Below are positions 11,321-33,133 of a DNA stretch of 42,997 nucleotides, in pieces. Positions within the stretch are counted from its first letter, which is position 1. Each line of letters starts with the position of its first letter. This DNA comes from an uncultured Bacteroidales bacterium (lineage in GTDB: Bacteria; Bacteroidota; Bacteroidia; Bacteroidales; Bacteroidaceae), in NCBI GenBank assembly GCA_946055515.1, contig CAMGGA010000004.1, positions 1-42,997 of the forward strand, written 5' to 3'. The notes under the pieces were generated by a model. That model was not told the DNA's origin and ran no database searches. It was given only the letters and a program-made list of their open reading frames with translations. A program made the translations under genes and the position numbers.

Positions 11321-12625
11321 TTATTCAAAAGCGCCCATGCGCAGCATCTGCACCTCCTTCTCGGTGAGGTAGCGCCAGTCGCCGCGGCGTACGTTTTTCT
11401 TCGTGAGGCCGGCGAAATAGACGCGGTCGAGTTTCGTCACGTGGTAGCCGAGGCTTTCAAAGATTCGGCGCACGATGCGGTTCTTGCCGCTGTGGATTTC
11501 GATGCCCACCTGCTTCTTGTCCGTGGGATGGGCGTATTCGACAGCGTCGGCCTTGATGAGGCCATCGTCGAGCGTGATACCTTCAGCGATGCGCTGGATG
11601 TCGGCTGCGCTGACGTTGCGGTCGGCGGTCACGTGGTAGATTTTCTTCTTCAGGAATTTGGGGTGCGTGAGCTTGGAAGCCATTTCGCCGTCGTTCGTGA
11701 GGAGAAGCACACCCGTCGTGTTGCGGTCGAGACGTCCCACGGGGTAGATGCGTTCGGGGCAGGCGTTGGCGACGAGGTCCATCACGGTCTTGCGGTTCTG
11801 GGGGTCCTCGCTCGTCGTCACGTAGCCCTTGGGCTTATTCAGGAGCACGTAGACCTTCTTCTCGAGCTTCACCAAGTTGTCGTGGAAGCGGATTTCGTCC
11901 GTGCGGAGCACCTTGGCGCCGAGTTCGGTCACCACTGCGCCGTTCACGCTCACCACGCCGGCTTCGATATACTTGTCCGCGTCGCGGCGCGAGCACACGC
12001 CGGCGTTGGCCAAGAACTTGTTGAGGCGCAAGGGTACGGTGGGGTCGTAGTTCTCCTCCTTATATTCGAGACGTTTCTTCTGGGAGTATTTTGCATGCGG
12101 GTCGAAGTTGCCACGGCGCTGCTGCGGACGGTTGTAGCCGCCGCCATTGTAGCGCGGGCGGAAGCCGCCCTGACCACCGCGCTGCTGATAGCCGCCTTGG
12201 GTACGGCGGGGCTGGTAGCCGCCCTCCGTTTCGTGCATTTCGCCGCCGGCATTGTAGCGGGGCGCATAGCCCTGGCGCGGCTGGCGGGGCTGCCAGCCCT
12301 GGTTGTCGCCGCCACCGTAGCGCTGCTTGCCCCAGCGGTTTTCACGGGGCTGGTAGCCGCCTTGGCGCGGGTTGTCGGAGCGGTAGTTGCGCTGCGAACC
12401 GTAGCCGCCTTCGGAGCGTTCGGAATAGCGGGGGCGGTAGGAGCCCTGCTGCGACGCGCCCTGCGAACTGTAGTCGCTGCTTCCGGCGGGACGGAAGTTG
12501 CGGTTGATGCGCGGGCGCGGCGTGTGGCCACCGCCCTGCGGTCTGTTCGTGTGTCCATTTTCCTCATTCTGCCAGCTGTAGCCGTCACGGCCTTGGCTGT
12601 TGTTGTTCATGAAATCGTCACTCAT
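11321..12625 (-). CDS. rRNA pseudouridine synthase (RluB/RsuA family) with a Gly/Arg/Gln/Tyr-rich N-terminal extension
   Basis: C-terminal half has an S4 domain (LRLNKFLANAGVCSRRDADKYIEAGVVSVNG) and GRLDRNTTGVLLLTNDG; residues about 1-190 are low-complexity RGG/GGYQ-rich. Confidence 0.92.
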   Translation of the reverse strand: MSDDFMNNNSQGRDGYSWQNEENGHTNRPQGGGHTPRPRINRNFRPAGSSDYSSQGASQQGSYRPRYSERSEGGYGSQRNYRSDNPRQGGYQPRENRWGKQRYGGGDNQGWQPRQPRQGYAPRYNAGGEMHETEGGYQPRRTQGGYQQRGGQGGFRPRYNGGGYNRPQQRRGNFDPHAKYSQKKRLEYKEENYDPTVPLRLNKFLANAGVCSRRDADKYIEAGVVSVNGAVVTELGAKVLRTDEIRFHDNLVKLEKKVYVLLNKPKGYVTTSEDPQNRKTVMDLVANACPERIYPVGRLDRNTTGVLLLTNDGEMASKLTHPKFLKKKIYHVTADRNVSAADIQRIAEGITLDDGLIKADAVEYAHPTDKKQVGIEIHSGKNRIVRRIFESLGYHVTKLDRVYFAGLTKKNVRRGDWRYLTEKEVQMLRMGAFE

Positions 12626-14187: not shown

Positions 14188-15537
14188 CTAACGTTCCTTC
14201 ACGGGCACGTAGTCGCTGGGGTCGGCCACGCAGCGGTAAGCCGGGCGGATGATGCGCCGGCCGTTGAAGCAGAGTTCCTCATTGCGGTGTGCACACCAGC
14301 CCACGATGCGCGCCATGGCGAAGAGCGGCGTGTAGATCTCTTCGGGCAGGCCGATGAGGTCGTAGACGAAGCCCGAGTAGAAGTCCACGTTGGCGCAGAG
14401 CTTCTTGCCCTCGCCCTTCACGCTGTAGACGGCCTGTACGGCAAGGCGTTCGATGCGTTTCATCAGTTCAAACTCTTTCAGGCGTCCCTTTTCGGCGGCG
14501 AGTTTGCCAGCCATCTCGCGGAGCAATACGGCGCGGGGGTCGGAGAGCGTGTAGACGGCGTGGCCGATACCGTAGATAAGGCCGCTGCCGTCGTAGGCTT
14601 CCTTGCGCACCATCTTGCAGAGGTAGCGGAAGATTTCTCCCTCGTCCTCCCAGTCCTCGATGACGTCCTTGAGGTGCTCGATCATGTGATGCACGCGGAT
14701 GTTCGCCCCACCGTGTTTCGGTCCCTTGAGCGAGCCGATGCCGGCGGCGATGGAGGAATAGGTGTCGGTGCAGGTCGAGGATGTCACGCGCACGGTGAAC
14801 GTAGAGTTGTTACCGCCGCCGTGTTCGGCCTGCAAAACGAGCAACAGGTCGAGGGTTCTGGCGTCGAGACGCGTGTAGTTGTTGCCCACGAGCATATAGA
14901 GGAAATTTTCGGCCAGTGAAAAATCCTCTTTGGGGTGGCGGATGTGGAGCGAGCGTCCGAGCATCTTGTGGCGCAGCATGTTGTAGGCGTACGCGATGAT
15001 GGTGGGGAATTTCGACGTGAGCTCGATGCTTTGCCGCATGAGGTTGTCGCGCGAGATGTCGTCGGGGTTCTCGTCGTAGGTATAGAGTTCGAGCACACTG
15101 CGGGCCAGGATGTTCATGATGTCGCTGCCCTCGAGTTCGACGATATTGAGCATCGTTTTCGACATCAGGGGCATATTGTCCACCAAGAGCAGGCGGAACT
15201 GTTCGAGTTCCTCGGCGTCGGGCAGGCGTCCCGAGAGCAACAGATAGGCCACTTCTTCAAAGCCGAATCGCTCCTCCTCGAGCATGGCGCGGGTGAGGTC
15301 AGCGATTTCGTAGCCGCGGAAGTAGAGGCGACCTTCGATGGGCTGCAATCCGTCGGCGGTGCGTTCGTAGCCCACGACGTTGCCGATGTTCGTGAGTCCC
15401 ACCAACACGCCCGTCCCGTCCTCGTTGCGCAATCCGCGCTTCACGTCGAGTTTACGGAACAGGTCGGCATCGATTTTGATGCACCCCTTCATGTTGTCAG
15501 CCAGCTTGTAGATGAGATAGTCCTTCTTGTCCGTCAT
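14188..15537 (-). CDS. gltA: Citrate synthase
   Basis: MTDKKDYLIYKLADNMKGCIKIDADLFRKLDVKRGLRNEDGTGVLVGLTNIGNVVGYE...; GSLKGPKHGGANIRVHHMIEHL; GIGHAVYTLSDPRAVLL. The upstream extension to 16608 is not supported. Confidence 0.9.
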   Translation of the reverse strand: MTDKKDYLIYKLADNMKGCIKIDADLFRKLDVKRGLRNEDGTGVLVGLTNIGNVVGYERTADGLQPIEGRLYFRGYEIADLTRAMLEEERFGFEEVAYLLLSGRLPDAEELEQFRLLLVDNMPLMSKTMLNIVELEGSDIMNILARSVLELYTYDENPDDISRDNLMRQSIELTSKFPTIIAYAYNMLRHKMLGRSLHIRHPKEDFSLAENFLYMLVGNNYTRLDARTLDLLLVLQAEHGGGNNSTFTVRVTSSTCTDTYSSIAAGIGSLKGPKHGGANIRVHHMIEHLKDVIEDWEDEGEIFRYLCKMVRKEAYDGSGLIYGIGHAVYTLSDPRAVLLREMAGKLAAEKGRLKEFELMKRIERLAVQAVYSVKGEGKKLCANVDFYSGFVYDLIGLPEEIYTPLFAMARIVGWCAHRNEELCFNGRRIIRPAYRCVADPSDYVPVKER

Positions 15538-25201: not shown

Positions 25202-26014
25202 ATGCTTCAATTCATATCCATCTGTTCGGGCAGCAGCGGTAACTGCTACTATCTGCTCAAAGACGGCTACGGCCTGCTCATAGATTTGGGCATCAGTTTC
25301 CGAAAGTTCAAGCAGCACTTCTCCAACTACGGACTGCCGCTGGCCCAAATCCAGGCCATCCTGGTCACGCACGACCACACGGACCACGTGAAGGGCGTGC
25401 CCCAGCTTTCCATCGACTTCCGCCTGCCCGTCTACACGTCGAAACTGGTCCACACGTCGATGATGCGCAACCACTATCTTTCGAAAAAGGTGCCCGCCGC
25501 CCAGCAGAACCCCTACGAGCGGGGCGACGCGCCGCTACAGCTCGGCCCGTTTGAAATCCGCTCGTTTGCCGTGCCCCACGACAGTGCGGACAACAACGGC
25601 TACGTGATCCGCGTGGAAGAGAAGTGCATCGTGGTGATGACGGACATCGGCCACTTCACGCCCGAGATGGAGCAAGCCGCGGGCGAAGCCACGCACCTGA
25701 TCATTGAATCGAACTACGACGAGGAGATGCTCGCCCACAGCAGCTACCCGCCCCGCCTGCAGCGACGCATCCGCGGGGAGCGCGGCCACATCAGCAATGC
25801 CGAGACGGGGCGCTTCCTGGCGCAGCACCTCAATCCCGAACGCATCCGGCAGGTGTGGCTCTGCCACCTCAGCGCGGAAAACAACCAGCCCGCCAAGGCG
25901 CTGGCCACAGTCACGGAGGCGCTGGAGGAAGCGGGCTACGCGCCCGGCCTGCCCGGGGGCCTGAAAGTGGACCCGCTGCCGCGCCAAACGCCGACCCTGC
26001 TCCAGACGCTCTGA
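25202..26014 (+). CDS. MBL fold metallo-hydrolase (YycJ/WalJ-like)
   Basis: MLQFISICSGSSGNCYYLLKDGYGLLIDLGISFRKFK...ILVTHDHTDHVKG...VVMTDIGHFTPEM; HxHxDH metal motif. Confidence 0.9.
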   Translation: MLQFISICSGSSGNCYYLLKDGYGLLIDLGISFRKFKQHFSNYGLPLAQIQAILVTHDHTDHVKGVPQLSIDFRLPVYTSKLVHTSMMRNHYLSKKVPAAQQNPYERGDAPLQLGPFEIRSFAVPHDSADNNGYVIRVEEKCIVVMTDIGHFTPEMEQAAGEATHLIIESNYDEEMLAHSSYPPRLQRRIRGERGHISNAETGRFLAQHLNPERIRQVWLCHLSAENNQPAKALATVTEALEEAGYAPGLPGGLKVDPLPRQTPTLLQTL

Positions 26015-26152
26015 GGCCAGCTCCGACCGTTCGGGCGCCGTTAGATGCAACCCCACTTTACGGGGGGGGCAGGCAGCGCGCGGCCTTGGCAGCCCGCTGC
26101 CCCGTTCCCGCAATCCAGCAAACCCCTTCCTTGGACCCTCACTGATACAGCT

Positions 26153-28204
26153 ATGAACCTCTTTCAAAAATGCCTGGTCGCGCTGGCTATAGCCAACCCT
26201 TTCCACCTGTCGGGCCAGGAGGCGACCTGCGATTCCGTCGCCGAGCAACTGATGGAACAGACTTGGCGGGAATTCCGTGACATCCACCCGTTTGGCTACC
26301 AGACTGTGGGACTCAAACACTGGGGCGACACCTGCGTGTTTGTCATGAGCGAACCCAACCATTGGGTGAAGGAAGAGACCCTGCGGCAACTCTTTGAGAA
26401 ATACCACGGGCAGATGGCCTTGAAGTATCAGCGCTTCGGGATTGACGGACAACTGACGGACGCTGTCGGTTGCGTGAAATTGGACAGTGGACAATTCCGG
26501 AAGTTTGAGCAAGAGGCGTTCCAGCTCCTTTATCGCACCAGCTACAAGCCATCCTACACAGACTTAGACCATCCCGCCCCACACGTTTATTTCTCCCCCG
26601 TTTCCCTGAACCTTTCCTGCCCCTTGGACAGCATCCTCTTCCAGCGGTTCTTGGTGAAAGGCCCCGATGGCTCCACCGGCAGCCGGTCTTTTGCATACCC
26701 CATGCTGGGAAAGATGGCCCAGAGCAATGAGATATACTATAGTGAACGCCGGGGGATGATTGCCTGGGTCTTCGACACCGACAAAGACTTCCTCGCCGAC
26801 GACTCCTTCTTGGTGAATGCCCGCAAGTTTGCCTTGGACAGCGACCTGATTTTGGCCACTTTTTGCCTGAAAGGCCGAATGGCCATTGTGGGCCGCGAAC
26901 GCGAAGTGCCCGTCCATATCCTCCCGCCCCTGCGGAGCGAAACCATCCTCCCGCTGGCCGCTGTGCAGGAGCCCCCATTCCTCTTCTTCGACAGGGACAG
27001 CCTGACCACGGTGAACGACACGACGGTAGCGACGCCCATCCTGATGAGTCCCCAACTGGAGAACACGGAGATGGGCAACCTCATGGTGCTGACCGACTGG
27101 TTCCTGAAGTCCTGGAGCGAGAACGGTAGCGTCAAGGAGTACACCCTCGATTATCCCCGTCCACAGCAGGTTCTTTTCCCGAAGGGTGTGGCACACGAAT
27201 TGGGAGATTCCACGCTATATCTATGGCAAACGGAGTTTGTGGAATCTGGAGCTCTCGGATTCTACCCCGTAATTCAGACAGGTAGCCTTCCCATTTGCTA
27301 TTGGTCGGCCAGCGACACGCTGCTGTCCAAGCAAAGCGCGATGAGCCATGCTGCCTACTGCTATTTTGCCGACCTGAACAACCCCGAACTGGTACGCACG
27401 GCCATGTACATGAGCATCGCTCACATCTTCCAAAAGGCAGGCGTCAGGACTTCAGCGGAGCACGGCGCTTCTTGGGTGCAAACTCCTTCGTGGATCATTA
27501 CCGATGCCCCTTTGGGCTATGGAGGATTTCCTATAAAACTATTCAAGGGGCTTGGGAAAATGGGGAAAGCCACGGGAAAGGGAATAGCGGGCAAAGCGAT
27601 TCCTGGGTGGAGAGGAATATGCGGTGGGGGGCACACTATGTCCCAAAAAGTCCCCGAAAGCAGCCTCCGTTGGGGCTACGTGCCGAGAGTTTCAGGAAAA
27701 TTCAGCAAACTTGACCAAAGACTGACGAATGAAACAGAAAGGTTCACCCCGGAGATAAAGGCATCAGAAAATTTCCACATACACCTTCGCAATGAGTTGC
27801 AGGAAAATCCTTTCAGCTGTACAAGTCCTCTTTCGCCCCACTGGCTCTCTGTCTTCCCCCCAACCGAAACACCCATCCGTCCCTTCGTTCCAGCAGCAAG
27901 CGAAGAGCGTGGCTTCCAAGCAGCAACGCAGGCCGCGCCCACCCCGCACGAGCCCGAGGATGCGGCCCGGCCCATGCCGGCCAACAAGCGGGAACAGATG
28001 ATTCTGGAGATGAGGCGGCAAATCGTCAAGCACCAGATACCGCTGAAGGCGTTCAAGGCAGAAATCCAAGAGACCGACTTCGGCTTCATCCTCTTCCTGT
28101 TCGACAACGACTGTCCAACATTTTGCAACGACTATCCTACCTACCTCTATGGCGAATATGAAGATACTCTTTCTCATTTCCCTGCCCCGGAGCAAGGAGT
28201 TTGA
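26153..28204 (+). CDS. Uncharacterized large protein, probable signal peptide, with internal Gly/Lys-rich segment
   Basis: About 683 aa from MNLFQKCLVALAIANPFHLSGQEATCDSVAEQ; no family recognized; internal GYGGFPIKLFKGLGKMGKATGKGIAGKAIPGWRGICGGG. Confidence 0.75.
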   Translation: MNLFQKCLVALAIANPFHLSGQEATCDSVAEQLMEQTWREFRDIHPFGYQTVGLKHWGDTCVFVMSEPNHWVKEETLRQLFEKYHGQMALKYQRFGIDGQLTDAVGCVKLDSGQFRKFEQEAFQLLYRTSYKPSYTDLDHPAPHVYFSPVSLNLSCPLDSILFQRFLVKGPDGSTGSRSFAYPMLGKMAQSNEIYYSERRGMIAWVFDTDKDFLADDSFLVNARKFALDSDLILATFCLKGRMAIVGREREVPVHILPPLRSETILPLAAVQEPPFLFFDRDSLTTVNDTTVATPILMSPQLENTEMGNLMVLTDWFLKSWSENGSVKEYTLDYPRPQQVLFPKGVAHELGDSTLYLWQTEFVESGALGFYPVIQTGSLPICYWSASDTLLSKQSAMSHAAYCYFADLNNPELVRTAMYMSIAHIFQKAGVRTSAEHGASWVQTPSWIITDAPLGYGGFPIKLFKGLGKMGKATGKGIAGKAIPGWRGICGGGHTMSQKVPESSLRWGYVPRVSGKFSKLDQRLTNETERFTPEIKASENFHIHLRNELQENPFSCTSPLSPHWLSVFPPTETPIRPFVPAASEERGFQAATQAAPTPHEPEDAARPMPANKREQMILEMRRQIVKHQIPLKAFKAEIQETDFGFILFLFDNDCPTFCNDYPTYLYGEYEDTLSHFPAPEQGV

Positions 28205-29453
28205 AGCATACACAGAGTTGGCCGCCTGGTGCGTGAACCAGCTCCGCGAGAAAGGCGTTGAGGTGCGGGAGCGCATTCATCCCGAGGACTTAGGGCACAT
28301 CACGGGGTACGACATCGTCATCGTGGTGGCCCACCATGACGCAGACGCGAATATACTCCGCCTCGCCGACGGCGACCTCTCCGTGGAGCGTTTTGTGCAG
28401 AGCCTTCCCGCGGATTTCAGTGGTGTCCTCGACTTCTCCTCCTGCTTCAGCGCATCGGCAAAGGAGGCCATCAAGCAGCGCTGCCCCGGGTGTCTGGTGC
28501 AAGTGGCCCGGGAGACGACCCGACTGGCCGTTCGCCTCGTGGCCTATCCCTTTGTGGTAGACCTCGTGGAGGAGAACAAGGACAAGGACTACCACTTCAA
28601 CTACATGGAGGGCCTCCGGCTGGGCCAGGAAGCGGCAGCGGGAAATCCCGAAGATGAGCAATACGACGACGATTCCGTGCGGCTGGGCCAGAAGAAAGCC
28701 TCCGTCTATGCGCCCTTGGCCACAGAGAAGAAGTCCTTCGTCCTCATCAATGTGTTCATCCACTACGAGGCGGAGAAGCCTGAGGTCCGCGCCAGTGCCA
28801 ATCCGGGAACGGAGGTACACATCAACGCCCGGGACCTGGGCTGCCTGGGCTTGGGCGACCGGGTGAGGCTTCAGCTCGAAATCATGCCAAGCGAACACTC
28901 CAAGCACCTCCACATCGTGGGCGACGAGACGAAGGCCGTCACCATCACGGACGAAATGGTACAGGAGGACTTCGTCGTCTATGTCGATGAACTATTTGAC
29001 GCGAACAATTTCGGCTGCTTCGTCCATCTCTATCAAGGAGAGGAGGTGAAGAAGTCGTTTGTCCTGACCGTCAAGATCGCGGGCAGGCCATGGAATCCCG
29101 AAGCCGAACAGGTGGACTGGAGCAGCATGGTTCAATACCCGTTCCGGGCGAAAGGGCCCAAGAACCTCGTGCAGGTTCACGCCTTTCTCCACAACAACCA
29201 CATCATCCCGGAATACGTGGATTTCAACTTTCTGCGCAACTGCATCGTCCACGCCTACTTCAAGCCGCTGTGGGACAAAGGCCACAACACCTTCATCCTC
29301 CACCTCATGCACAAGGCGAAGAAAGGTTTTGCCGACGAGAGAAAGTGGGCCGACGAAGCCTGCAACAGCGTAGGCATCGAACGCGACAGGCTCGGGAAGA
29401 ATCCGCCGAGCCAGACACGGTTTGGAGAGAAGATGCCCGACCTCGAGTTTTAG
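28149..29453 (+). CDS. Caspase/CHAT-like (clan CD) putative protease with C-terminal beta-rich extension
   Basis: MKILFLISLPRS... alternating strands/helices; YDIVIVVAHHDADANILRLADGDLSVERFVQSLPADFSGVLDFSSCFSAS fits the His and Cys strands of a caspase-like fold; ATG overlaps the upstream gene. Confidence 0.65.
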   Translation: MANMKILFLISLPRSKEFEAYTELAAWCVNQLREKGVEVRERIHPEDLGHITGYDIVIVVAHHDADANILRLADGDLSVERFVQSLPADFSGVLDFSSCFSASAKEAIKQRCPGCLVQVARETTRLAVRLVAYPFVVDLVEENKDKDYHFNYMEGLRLGQEAAAGNPEDEQYDDDSVRLGQKKASVYAPLATEKKSFVLINVFIHYEAEKPEVRASANPGTEVHINARDLGCLGLGDRVRLQLEIMPSEHSKHLHIVGDETKAVTITDEMVQEDFVVYVDELFDANNFGCFVHLYQGEEVKKSFVLTVKIAGRPWNPEAEQVDWSSMVQYPFRAKGPKNLVQVHAFLHNNHIIPEYVDFNFLRNCIVHAYFKPLWDKGHNTFILHLMHKAKKGFADERKWADEACNSVGIERDRLGKNPPSQTRFGEKMPDLEF

Positions 29454-29510
29454 GCCCATCGCCCCTCGCGGCGTCTTCCAACCCGCAAAAAACACAGAAT
29501 TCCCCGCCAT

Positions 29511-29542
29511 CCCCATACATCCCATAGGTATGGGGATTTTTG
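29511..29542 (+). terminator. Rho-independent terminator after the caspase-like gene
   Basis: CCCCATAC-ATCCCATAG-GTATGGGG followed by ATTTTTGTTT. Confidence 0.8.
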
Positions 29543-29786
29543 TTTCACTGAAACTCAGCGCATTCCGACGTTTCATCTCAACAATCCGCCATAGCTTTTG
29601 GGGGCGCGGCGCAGGACGGGTTGCCGTAGCTTTGCAGCAGAAATCAGCATAAAAGGTTTTCACCGCCCGTTTAGTGGCATCTTAGAGCTACGGGAAGAAG
29701 CGAAATCTTCAACGGGCACTCCTCAAACGAGGGCTCGGTCTCCAACGGGAACGAGAGAATTATTCACTTACAAACTCATTCCAATT

Positions 29787-30134
29787 ATGAAAAAGAATCT
29801 TATCCTCGTCGTCCTCGTCGTCTGCTGTGCCTTTGCATGGCCCACGACAAGTTGTTCCGCCCAGGGATGTGGCTTCACGCGCTGCATGAAGGTCCTCCTC
29901 GACCGTGCACCGATGGCAACAGCATCCAGTATGGTGCGGGCCCACTATGCTATCCAGAGAGAACGAGACAGACAAAGCACCCTGATTAGAACGCGTGCCT
30001 ACCAAACCTCCCTGCTCAAATCTCAACGAATCGACAAACGCATTCAGACCAAGACACAACCTCTTCCGAAAGGCAACTTGTTACGCAAGCCCCAGCCCAT
30101 GTCCATGCCTCACAGAAAATGCCCGAAGCCATAG
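29787..30134 (+). CDS. Small secreted basic protein, uncharacterized
   Basis: MKKNLILVVLVVCCAFAWPTTSCSAQGCGFTRCMKVLLDRAP...; strong signal peptide; Arg/Lys-rich mature region. Confidence 0.65.
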   Translation: MKKNLILVVLVVCCAFAWPTTSCSAQGCGFTRCMKVLLDRAPMATASSMVRAHYAIQRERDRQSTLIRTRAYQTSLLKSQRIDKRIQTKTQPLPKGNLLRKPQPMSMPHRKCPKP

Positions 30135-30396
30135 CACGCCGACCTGCAAGAGATGGAAGACTTCCGCAGCCTTTGGCTGACAATCATCCAGGCGGCCGTC
30201 GGGCTCAAGTAGCCCTGGCCGCCCATTCCTACACCTATTGACTCTCGGAGATTATGGGGTAATTAAGTTTGTTTCAAGTGAGGCTGGGCCAAGCTTGCTT
30301 TCAAATGCGAACGCCTCTTGATAACCATATCCACCTGGGGGCGAAGCGACCCTGACCTAACAACCTTCAAGCTCCAGAACTTGAATTACATATAAT

Positions 30397-32622
30397 ATGA
30401 AAAGTAACAATTACTATCAGATGTGCTGGCAAAGCCTGTCGGAGGAAGAGAAACGGCTCTCTTCATTTCTCTCCATTGTGGCTGCAGAGGGCATCTCAGA
30501 GCAAACGGTGTTTCAGGTTCTCCAGCCCGTCCATGCAAGGGACTTCCACGCGTCCATTGAAAAGCTGTGCTTGCTCCACTGGATCACACTGGACCACCAT
30601 ACCATCGTGGCACCGCCACAGACAGCCGACTTCTTCCTGAAGATGAGGCCCATCAATGAGCCGACCATCGAGAAGGTACTTGGAGCACTGGACAAGCTGC
30701 TCCCCCTGCGCCCGCAGGACGATATGCTGGCGAAGCAGGAGTACTTTGTGCTGGCCCGTCTGTTCTTGGAACACCTGCTGGCCGCCCCCCACAGACGGGC
30801 GGTCAAGAAATCGCACATCGCCCCGCTTTTCGCAGCAGTGGTGATTGTCTTCGTGAGCAACTTCGAGCTGTCGCTCTGCGGAAACAAGCGGCAACCCGTC
30901 GCTGCGCTGGAAGACCGACTGGACTACCGGCTCTTGAAGTTCGTCACGGAAATCAACAGCGACAACAGGCGCACAGGCCATGCCTACCGTCTGCTCGGCG
31001 AACTGTATACGAACATTTTCCGGTATGGCGAGGCAAAAGCCTGTTTCCAAGAGGCAGAAGCCCTTCTGGGCCCAAACGCCCAGCTCTGGATGGCGCAGGC
31101 AAGGATGTATGAGAACCTCGGCATCTTCTCGCGCGCCTTCCAGCTGGCCTATCGCGCCTACCTGTTCAACAAGGGGAAGAACTGGGGCGAAGACAACATT
31201 CCCGTTTGCCTCTACCTCTCCTACCTCTGCGCCTCCAGCCAAGCGGCCGCAGACAGCAAGGTCTGGCGAAACAAGGCTTGCGCCCTGTTGGGCATGAAGG
31301 AGGTGCCGCCCTGCCATTCCGTCAGCATTACGCTGAAGGAAATCGAGGCGCTGGTACACCAGCAGGACACGGCCCTTGCCCACCAGATTGCCGACGCCGC
31401 AGAACTGGAGATTGTCCACCTCTACGGCGGCGGTGCGCCCGAACTGGCCCGCCTGGCCTTTATCCGCTGCGTGATTGACGAACAGGCAGGACTGGACCGC
31501 AAGAGCATGGCCCACTACGCGGACTACGTCCACTTCAACCACACCAACTATGGCTTCAGCGTGGGCGACCAGGCCGTACTCTACGCCGGCATCATCTTCA
31601 ACCACATTCAGCGTGGCAACACGACGACCACCGCCTTCTACTCCGCCAAGATGCAAGCGCTCTATGCGGAAGGGGACAACATCGCTCCCGGCGTGCGCTT
31701 CAACCAGGCCATTGCCAACTATCTCTCCCATTCCGCCGAAGCATCCTACAGCCTGTGCGAGGCTTACTTGGAGACAGCGGTAGAAATCTACGAGAAGGAA
31801 CTGAAGCCCGACGACGCCCTGCTCGCGGAGATTGCCCCCGTCTTCCACAACGGGAAGATTCCCGCTTCGGTGATGGAGGCAGATGCTTATAAGACCATCC
31901 ACCTCTGCACCATCCACCACTGCATGGCAGAAGGGCGTATTGGCGATGCCAAGGCTATCATCGGGAAATTGACCCGCAACGAGGAAGATGCCCTGGAGCG
32001 CCAGAAATGGGCCGTACAGCTGGGCCGCGCCCTCATCGCAGAGGGCAAGAGGGAGACCGGCCTGCGTGTGTGGAACAAGACGCTCGAGAAGGTGTCCAAA
32101 GCCTCCAGGTTTGAAATAGCCAAGGAAATGGCCGAATGGGCAGACCACTTCAATCTGCACTTCGACTCCCTCCATTTCTACGAGGAAGCCCTGCAAAGGG
32201 ACACGATGGCCTACGGCAACTCCCGCGACATCGTGGAAGCCCTGCAATGCTATGCCCACGAGCTCGAACAGTGTGGATTGGAGGAAATATCCGACGAGCC
32301 CTGGAAGCAAGCGCTCACGCTGGCGCAATCCACGGGCGACAAGGACGGCATTGCCCTGCTCTACTTCACCTGGAGTGCCACCAAGCAAGGCCACGAGGCC
32401 GAGGTGCTTCTGGAGAAAGCCATCAGCCACTGGACGCCCGAACCTTCTCTCTTCGACGAAACGCTCGCCAAAATGTACTTCAGCTTGGCCTGTGTCCAGG
32501 CGCAGCAAGGCCATACAGAAGCGTTCGAGGCCGCCAGCCTCAAAGCCATGGCCCTCTGTCCTGGGGATATCCCCAAGGAGTGTGTAGAGGAAATGCTGAG
32601 CCAACTGCCCAAGGCAGAATAG
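30397..32622 (+). CDS. wHTH + TPR-repeat protein, STAND-regulator-like but with no recognizable NTPase domain
   Basis: 741 aa; N-terminus WQSLSEEEKRLSSFLSIVAAEGISEQTVFQVLQPVHARDFHASIEKLCLLHWITLDHHTIVAPPQTADFFL resembles STAND winged helix; remainder helical-repeat (AYRLLGELYTNIFRYGEAKACFQEAEALL). Confidence 0.75.
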   Translation: MKSNNYYQMCWQSLSEEEKRLSSFLSIVAAEGISEQTVFQVLQPVHARDFHASIEKLCLLHWITLDHHTIVAPPQTADFFLKMRPINEPTIEKVLGALDKLLPLRPQDDMLAKQEYFVLARLFLEHLLAAPHRRAVKKSHIAPLFAAVVIVFVSNFELSLCGNKRQPVAALEDRLDYRLLKFVTEINSDNRRTGHAYRLLGELYTNIFRYGEAKACFQEAEALLGPNAQLWMAQARMYENLGIFSRAFQLAYRAYLFNKGKNWGEDNIPVCLYLSYLCASSQAAADSKVWRNKACALLGMKEVPPCHSVSITLKEIEALVHQQDTALAHQIADAAELEIVHLYGGGAPELARLAFIRCVIDEQAGLDRKSMAHYADYVHFNHTNYGFSVGDQAVLYAGIIFNHIQRGNTTTTAFYSAKMQALYAEGDNIAPGVRFNQAIANYLSHSAEASYSLCEAYLETAVEIYEKELKPDDALLAEIAPVFHNGKIPASVMEADAYKTIHLCTIHHCMAEGRIGDAKAIIGKLTRNEEDALERQKWAVQLGRALIAEGKRETGLRVWNKTLEKVSKASRFEIAKEMAEWADHFNLHFDSLHFYEEALQRDTMAYGNSRDIVEALQCYAHELEQCGLEEISDEPWKQALTLAQSTGDKDGIALLYFTWSATKQGHEAEVLLEKAISHWTPEPSLFDETLAKMYFSLACVQAQQGHTEAFEAASLKAMALCPGDIPKECVEEMLSQLPKAE

Positions 32623-32664
32623 CCGTGCGCCGGGAGCGCGCGGCCTCCAGCGCCGCCCAAAAAT

Positions 32665-32700
32665 ATGGCCCAACTTCGCGATGGGCAGAAGTTGGGCCAT
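32665..32700 (-). terminator. Terminator hairpin for the panC-panD direction
   Basis: atggcccaacttc / gaagttgggccat 13-bp perfect stem, 10-nt loop; minus strand continues ATTTTT. Confidence 0.75.
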
Positions 32701-32785
32701 GATGGGATCGAGAGAGGCATTGCCTCGGGAAAGCACGGTCGGGGGCGGAATTTTCCCGGTGCGGCAGACCGAAGCCGCGCGTGGA

Positions 32786-33133
32786 CTACAGCGCGTTGTC
32801 GGGCCCCACGGGGAAGACGACCTGCGGCTTGAAATACTGCGCTTCTTCGGGTGTCATCTGCGCGTAGGCCATGATGATCACCTCGTCGCCGGGCTGGAAG
32901 AGTCGGGCGGCGGCACCATTGAGGCAGATGCAACCCGAACCCGCCGGGCCCGTGATCACGTAGGTCTCGATGCGCGAGCCATTGTTGTTGTTGACCACAT
33001 GGACATGTTCGCCCGCCACCAAGCCCGCGGCCTCCATCAGCCGCTCGTCGATGGTGATGCTGCCCATGTAGTGAAGGTTGGCCTCGGTGACGCGGGCGCA
33101 GTGTATCTTGGACTTTAAGATTGATAGCAACAT
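32786..33133 (-). CDS. panD: Aspartate 1-decarboxylase
   Basis: 115 aa [38 protein letters not shown]...[23 protein letters not shown] processing site. Confidence 0.97.

Follow-up and report, generated by a model that had tools for sequence, protein, structure and literature searches.

A candidate Bacteroidales conflict module encoding a caspase-like protein with exchangeable C-terminal tails

Organization of the four-gene locus

We describe a cassette of four genes, designated A to D, in a 42,997-nt stretch of DNA from an uncultured Bacteroidales bacterium of the Bacteroidaceae (contig CAMGGA010000004.1, positions 1 to 42,997; hereafter the window), whose genome is 76% complete. The main new finding is that protein B, which is likely caspase-like, combines a constant module with a variable tail. 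An original prediction made from the sequence had placed four same-strand genes between a WalJ-like hydrolase and panD, and all four open reading frames (ORFs) are present as described: the WalJ-like gene ends at 26014, the cassette is transcribed on the + strand, and panD is convergent with it (32786–33133, − strand). Gene A (26153–28204) encodes an exported protein of 683 aa with a signal-like N-terminus, and gene B (28149–29453) the caspase-like protein of 434 aa. These are followed by gene C (29787–30134), encoding a small secreted basic protein of 115 aa with a signal peptide, and gene D (30397–32622), encoding a 741-aa protein with a winged helix-turn-helix (wHTH)-like N-terminus, a tetratricopeptide repeat (TPR) superhelix and no P-loop. 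The overlap between the A and B ORFs, estimated earlier at about 56 nt, is exactly 56 nt (28149–28204). No Pfam, NCBIfam or PADLOC family covers A, B or C, in keeping with the suggestion that the system is undescribed; neither A nor B gave anything above chance in these libraries or in PHROGs, C gave nothing above chance in Pfam, NCBIfam or PADLOC, and there is no Rfam match over the cassette.

Several signals bear on how the cassette is transcribed. First, B is followed by an intrinsic terminator (29509–29537, + strand) with a perfect 10-bp stem leading into a T-run (−15.2 kcal/mol, z −2.8), which matches the terminator previously noted at 29511. Secondly, a Bacteroidota-type promoter-like element (TTTG ... 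TAGCTTTG; 29597–29634, + strand) lies upstream of C, its 26-nt spacer between TTTG and TAGCTTTG being above the usual length, and a −7-like element, TAAGTTTG, lies upstream of D (30264–30271, + strand). Across the window the Bacteroidota −7 motif TAnnTTTG is overrepresented (22 sites against 9.1 expected), and is an aid for mapping transcription starts there; on the coding strand of the cassette its sole occurrences are at 29627, before C, and at 30264, before D. Because of the terminator after B and the promoter-like elements before C and D, A-B and C/D are probably separate transcripts, with separate promoters for C and D, and a single A–D operon was rejected on the same signals; two transcripts had been suggested earlier as a possibility. 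A long hairpin (GGCCCAACTTC...GAAGTTGGGCC, 32655–32705) lies in the gap between D and panD, which converge, and is probably a bidirectional terminator; the corresponding gap in congeners holds other hairpins.

Related loci and rarity of the cassette

The cassette is an accessory element of the genome. In two congeners the WalJ-like gene and panD lie close together (258 bp apart in one of these, L071, compared to 6772 bp in the window), and relative to these empty sites the cassette extends from 26015 to 32785. B is present in one of the 58 genomes of the window's genus, and a single-sequence search through 399 family genomes gave five positives including the window, one of which (G281) was found through the C-terminal tail only. 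Full-length D occurs in four of the 399 family genomes and adjoins B in three of the four, and A was found in one of 136 family genomes, that of the window itself. A second match to B in the window's own genome (G000:C5, E 0.015) overlaps, in a different frame, a nucleotidyltransferase-like gene and was rejected as noise.

The original prediction would have been refuted by homologues that never occur together, and they do occur together elsewhere, in the order A-B-C-D in one locus (L012) and in part in two others (L015 and L013). The first of these is in a Bacteroidaceae metagenome-assembled genome (MAG) of a different genus from yak reticulum, and has the order A, A2, B, small secreted ORF, D, where A2 corresponds to the C-terminal part of A; its D and A proteins share 40% and 39% identity with those of the window. 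L015, from goat reticulum, has the order A2, B, transmembrane (TM) protein, D. Two similar-looking TM proteins of about 205 aa flank its D gene (11827–12444 and 14913–15533), the first of them in the position of C. In L013, from a Muribaculaceae genome from goat duodenum, a 1062-aa A overlaps B, which in turn overlaps a gene encoding TPRs and an N-terminus read by eye as DUF4062-like. This last gene belongs to a larger array downstream of B (L013:11112–19897) that also includes two exported TPR proteins, an outer-membrane-like protein, and an exported protein with leucine-rich repeats and a Peptidase_C14 domain. A fourth locus (L014), in Candidatus Colivivens equi, has B fused to DUF4062, with a gene for a TIR-TM protein directly upstream (L014:45–2705); the separate overlapping genes of L013 and the fusion of L014 represent fusion or fission of one B/DUF4062 pair. 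In all four loci with A or A2, B begins inside that gene, and translational coupling of A and B is somewhat favoured.

Because D, A and B are individually very rare and yet repeatedly adjacent, in the same order in another genus, A-B-C-D is a real module, and chance co-occurrence is very unlikely. The terminator after B and the promoter-like elements before C and D would also fit a pair of unrelated units, A-B and C-D, that are merely adjacent, as would the ability of D to stand alone and the presence of A-B without D in L013; this is quite improbable, however, given that B and D are neighbors in three genomes of different genera while each is found in about 1% of the family genomes.

A constant module and exchangeable tails in protein B

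Comparison of the five full-length B sequences, of which the four other than that of the window are all from MAGs, reveals two parts with quite different behavior. Residues 1–312 (28149–29084, + strand) align between homologues with pairwise z-scores of 17–82, and form a constant module composed of a caspase-like alpha/beta domain (aa 1–165) and an immunoglobulin (Ig)-like beta-sandwich (aa ~186–312). The remainder, residues 313–434 in the window (29085–29453, + strand), is a variable C-terminal tail; the tails range from 78 to 327 aa and are unrelated to each other, with z-scores of −0.7 to 1.9 in every pair of homologues. The window tail does align along its whole length with the C-terminus of an otherwise unrelated 295-aa protein in G281 (z 16.8), and the similarity begins where the constant region of B stops; in L014 the tail is a DUF4062 domain (Pfam, 2.7e-13). 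B consists of a constant module joined to exchangeable C-terminal cassettes. This architecture goes beyond the original prediction, as do the Ig-like domain shared with TIR proteins, the empty site and the probable separate promoters of C and D. In the 295-aa protein (L006:961–1848) it is the C-terminal 117 aa that correspond to the window tail, and the neighboring genes are plasmid- or phage-like.

The Ig-like domain is predicted as strands at residues 196–310 in an AlphaFold2 (AF2) model, and profile searches pair it with designed Ig proteins. Set between different domains, it is also found in transglutaminase-kinase-TIR proteins and in one related TIR protein (L038:7827–10550, L039:8116–10902 and L134), so that B is linked through this domain to TIR proteins, as it is to DUF4062 proteins through its tail in L014. 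L038 and L039 are TIR-rich islands containing several further TIR proteins.

Is protein B a caspase?

The original prediction assigned B to the caspase/CHAT class from His and Cys strands. The residues themselves are well supported: exactly one His (H62, codon at 28332–28334, + strand) and one Cys (C99, codon at 28443–28445, + strand) are invariant in all five divergent homologues, and these are the predicted catalytic His and the predicted nucleophile. In the AF2 model (predicted local distance difference test score, pLDDT, of about 85 over aa 1–163) H62 ends strand 3 and C99 ends strand 4, the elements being strand 6–11, helix 22–34, strand 38–40, helix 45–49, strand 56–64, strands 69–72 and 75–78, helix 79–84, strand 93–95, helix 102–111 and strand 116–118. 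In caspases the order is beta1-alpha-beta2-alpha-beta3(H)-hairpin-alpha-beta4(C)-alpha-beta5. The elements of B match it, with the His after strand 3, the Cys after strand 4 and a hairpin following strand 3. The SxCx[ST][GA] pattern surrounding C99 resembles CHAT on visual inspection only.

The fold is less firmly established, and several results weigh against it or do not decide it. None of the five B homologues matches a caspase, CHAT or other peptidase model in Pfam. Profile alignment with hhalign did no better than shuffles: against 29 C14 domains from relatives it scored 15.0, a value that 24 of 200 column shuffles also reached, and against 29 CHAT (PF12770) domains from relatives it scored 12.8, where 101 of the 200 shuffles did at least as well. 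The best of these alignments place the Cys in register and the invariant His one residue before the catalytic His, and they are not counted here as evidence of caspase or CHAT ancestry. The His-Gly motif of clan CD is not kept, residues 62–63 being HH or HY. A Foldseek search of PDB and viral libraries with the floppy full-length model listed flavodoxins and beta-sandwiches without ranking caspases; a viral C14 caspase appeared only at rank 28 (prob 0.54). Taking these together, we consider a caspase fold probable from the motif and strand order, and B likely to be caspase-like.

A further question is whether such a domain would be active. About 70% of the caspase domains in the effector position of VMAP systems are reported to be catalytically inactive (PMC7159879), and B could similarly be a pseudo-protease, in which the caspase-like and Ig-like parts act as a structural hub, a homotypic or heterotypic adaptor, that recruits the tail and signalling passes through D and the tail without proteolysis. 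The HH or HY in place of HG and the lack of a match to any peptidase model would fit such a role, but the invariance of both the His and the Cys in five of five divergent homologues is unexpected for a decayed active site, and we regard the pseudo-protease as unlikely.

Gene D and the exported proteins A and C

The original description of D as a wHTH-TPR protein without a P-loop is borne out for the repeats, which are recognized by Pfam and are the only match for D in Pfam, NCBIfam, PADLOC or PHROGs, and for the P-loop, there being no GxxxxGK[ST] pattern in D or in two homologues and only a single degenerate chance match in the D of L012. The N-terminal winged helix, of the STAND type, is seen by eye, and no library model confirmed it. 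Of the four full-length family D genes, the one without B is a solo homologue (L031:5803–11691) in G082, a complete genome from the same genus as the window, where it lies beside a divergently oriented Type IIG restriction-methylation gene.

In protein A the N-terminal ~445 aa are conserved, and the C-terminal part is divergent and of low complexity. The latter is the part present as a separate ORF in L012, and the sole part of A that L015 has; as a conserved domain in its own right A2 lacks statistical support, though its position and its overlap with B are kept. The hydrophobicity profile of A shows an N-terminal signal-like segment only, and the AF2 model (pLDDT 44) is too poor to interpret. 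Standalone A homologues with an N-terminal TM anchor are found in two genomes of one genus in another Bacteroidales family (L036:9182–11518 and L037:8493–10853), with no B nearby and no adjoining conflict genes, and constitute an undescribed periplasmic protein family. Mature C has 20 Lys and Arg residues compared to four Asp and Glu. C is conserved in position and signal peptide only, and is not supported as a conserved component, the mature sequences of the window and L012 aligning no better than shuffles (z −0.3).

These properties would also fit two other roles for the locus. One is an envelope-stress or housekeeping regulator, in which periplasmic A together with B–D would form a unit for envelope quality control or the cell surface and would not be directed at phages; the export of A and C, the TM-anchored A homologues away from conflict genes and the mostly housekeeping flanks all agree with this. 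The patchy distribution of the cassette, the empty site in congeners, the swapping of tails and the ties to TIR and DUF4062 proteins are, however, typical traits of conflict systems and not of housekeeping genes, and make such a regulator improbable. The other is that A, C or both are antagonistic secreted toxins or effectors, with B and D as cytosolic immunity or maturation partners. An exported A adjoining B with overlapping ORFs, its divergent C-terminus, and a small, basic and secreted C would be appropriate to this, but variation by module exchange is seen in the B tail rather than in a toxin domain of A, Pfam gives A no match to a toxin domain, mature C is not conserved, most of A is absent in L015, and C and D are absent in L013; we consider it very improbable.

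A proposed conflict module

We favor, by somewhat better than even chances, the interpretation that the cassette is a horizontally acquired Bacteroidales conflict module, with an anti-phage or cell-death function, of a type in which a constant caspase carries a variable tail. B would be a cytosolic caspase-like cysteine protease whose constant half, protease and Ig-like domain together, is inactive until triggered, and the swappable tail, different from strain to strain, would serve as a sensor, adaptor or effector. D, as an NTPase-less STAND-like wHTH-TPR protein, would probably be a cytosolic scaffold or sensor that holds B or switches it on, and exported A, and possibly C, may be envelope-side parts that signal a disturbed envelope or hold the complex in place. 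Activation would result in auto-processing or in cleavage of a cellular target, followed by growth arrest or death. This logic follows the predicted EACC1 and EACC2 caspase systems, for which the same design principle has been described (PMC7159879, PMC8195603). In favor of such a module are the gene order that recurs in another genus, the rarity of A, B and D combined with their adjacency, the empty site in congeners, the constant and variable parts of B with their links to TIR and DUF4062 proteins, the invariant H62 and C99, and the solo D beside a Type IIG restriction gene.

Horizontal acquisition is, in our judgment, modestly probable. The L012, L013 and L015 loci occupy different chromosomal sites, and the cassette showed no integrase or tRNA and no convincing repeats at its flanks. 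The failure of B to match caspase or CHAT models and its lack of the His-Gly motif count against the proposed module, as do the following: no B homologues were found in phages, plasmids or viral contigs (for A and D homologues, for which only viral contigs were searched, there were likewise none); the genes flanking the loci are for the most part housekeeping ones and do not form defence islands, with the exception of the solo D in G082; the PADLOC defence library has no match for A–D or for the B and D homologues; and the export signals are on A and C but not on B and D. This separation of compartments, together with the lack of conservation in mature C, also makes action of the protease on A or C, though possible, the weakest part of the original prediction.

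A tentative extension of this interpretation, which we think possible though rather doubtful, is that the cassette represents an undescribed class of immune module in gut Bacteroidales, comprising a caspase-like protease with an Ig-like hub and exchangeable C-terminal cassettes, a periplasmic partner, and an NTPase-less STAND-like protein as the switch. Such a module, if real, would connect sensing at the envelope with cell death driven by a cytosolic protease.

Comparison with known systems

Parts of the cassette resemble several known systems. D is similar to the wHTH and TPR half of STAND NTPases (AP-ATPase/NB-ARC), the former by eye and the latter by Pfam, and differs in having no NTPase domain or P-loop. 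TPR-CHAT/Craspase (Csx29) also pairs a CHAT/caspase-like protease with TPRs, with two differences: here the TPRs and the protease are on separate proteins, and there is no Cas7-11, Csx30 or CRISPR among the annotated neighbors. TIR and DUF4062 effectors of Bacteroidales either share the Ig-like domain of B or serve as its tail, and differ in their other N-terminal domains (transglutaminase, kinase).

The closest resemblance is to the predicted EACC1 and EACC2 conflict systems, which combine a 5′ membrane component with a constant caspase to drive C-terminal domains of many kinds (PMC7159879, PMC8195603). EACC2-caspase systems (PMC8195603) have a constant caspase-containing N-terminal module, a variable C-terminus and a TPR (DUF1822) neighbor. 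Their caspase is preceded by an alpha+beta domain, whereas the caspase-like domain of B starts at residue ~5 and its extra domain is C-terminal, and no Pfam match to the EACC2 neighbors DUF1822, ECF sigma or TRADD-N was found among A–D. The EACC1 membrane-associated caspase system (System 4 of Kaur et al. 2020, PMC7159879), for which auto-proteolytic deployment of effectors has been proposed (PMC7159879), has a 3′ gene with a constant N-terminal caspase and variable C-terminal domains, an arrangement that the split in B reproduces, the caspase identity of B itself being probable. The differences from EACC1 are that A has no EACC1 domain (neither A nor the A2 ORFs have a Pfam match beyond chance up to E=10) and is a large periplasmic protein with an N-terminal signal in place of one central, conserved TM helix, that in B an Ig-like domain is added and the active site diverges, that C and D are extra, and that the host is a member of the Bacteroidales while EACC1 is found mainly in actinobacteria. 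From these comparisons EACC1 and EACC2 are the nearest known design, and with these differences the B system would work like them without being one of them.

Predictions of caspase-like proteases with swappable tails have come mainly from multicellular actinobacteria and cyanobacteria. A small version in Bacteroidales of the rumen and gut, with a shared Ig-like domain tying it to TIR and DUF4062 proteins, would extend this design to host-associated bacteria, and a cassette of four genes would allow direct tests of tail swapping, protease activation and envelope sensing.

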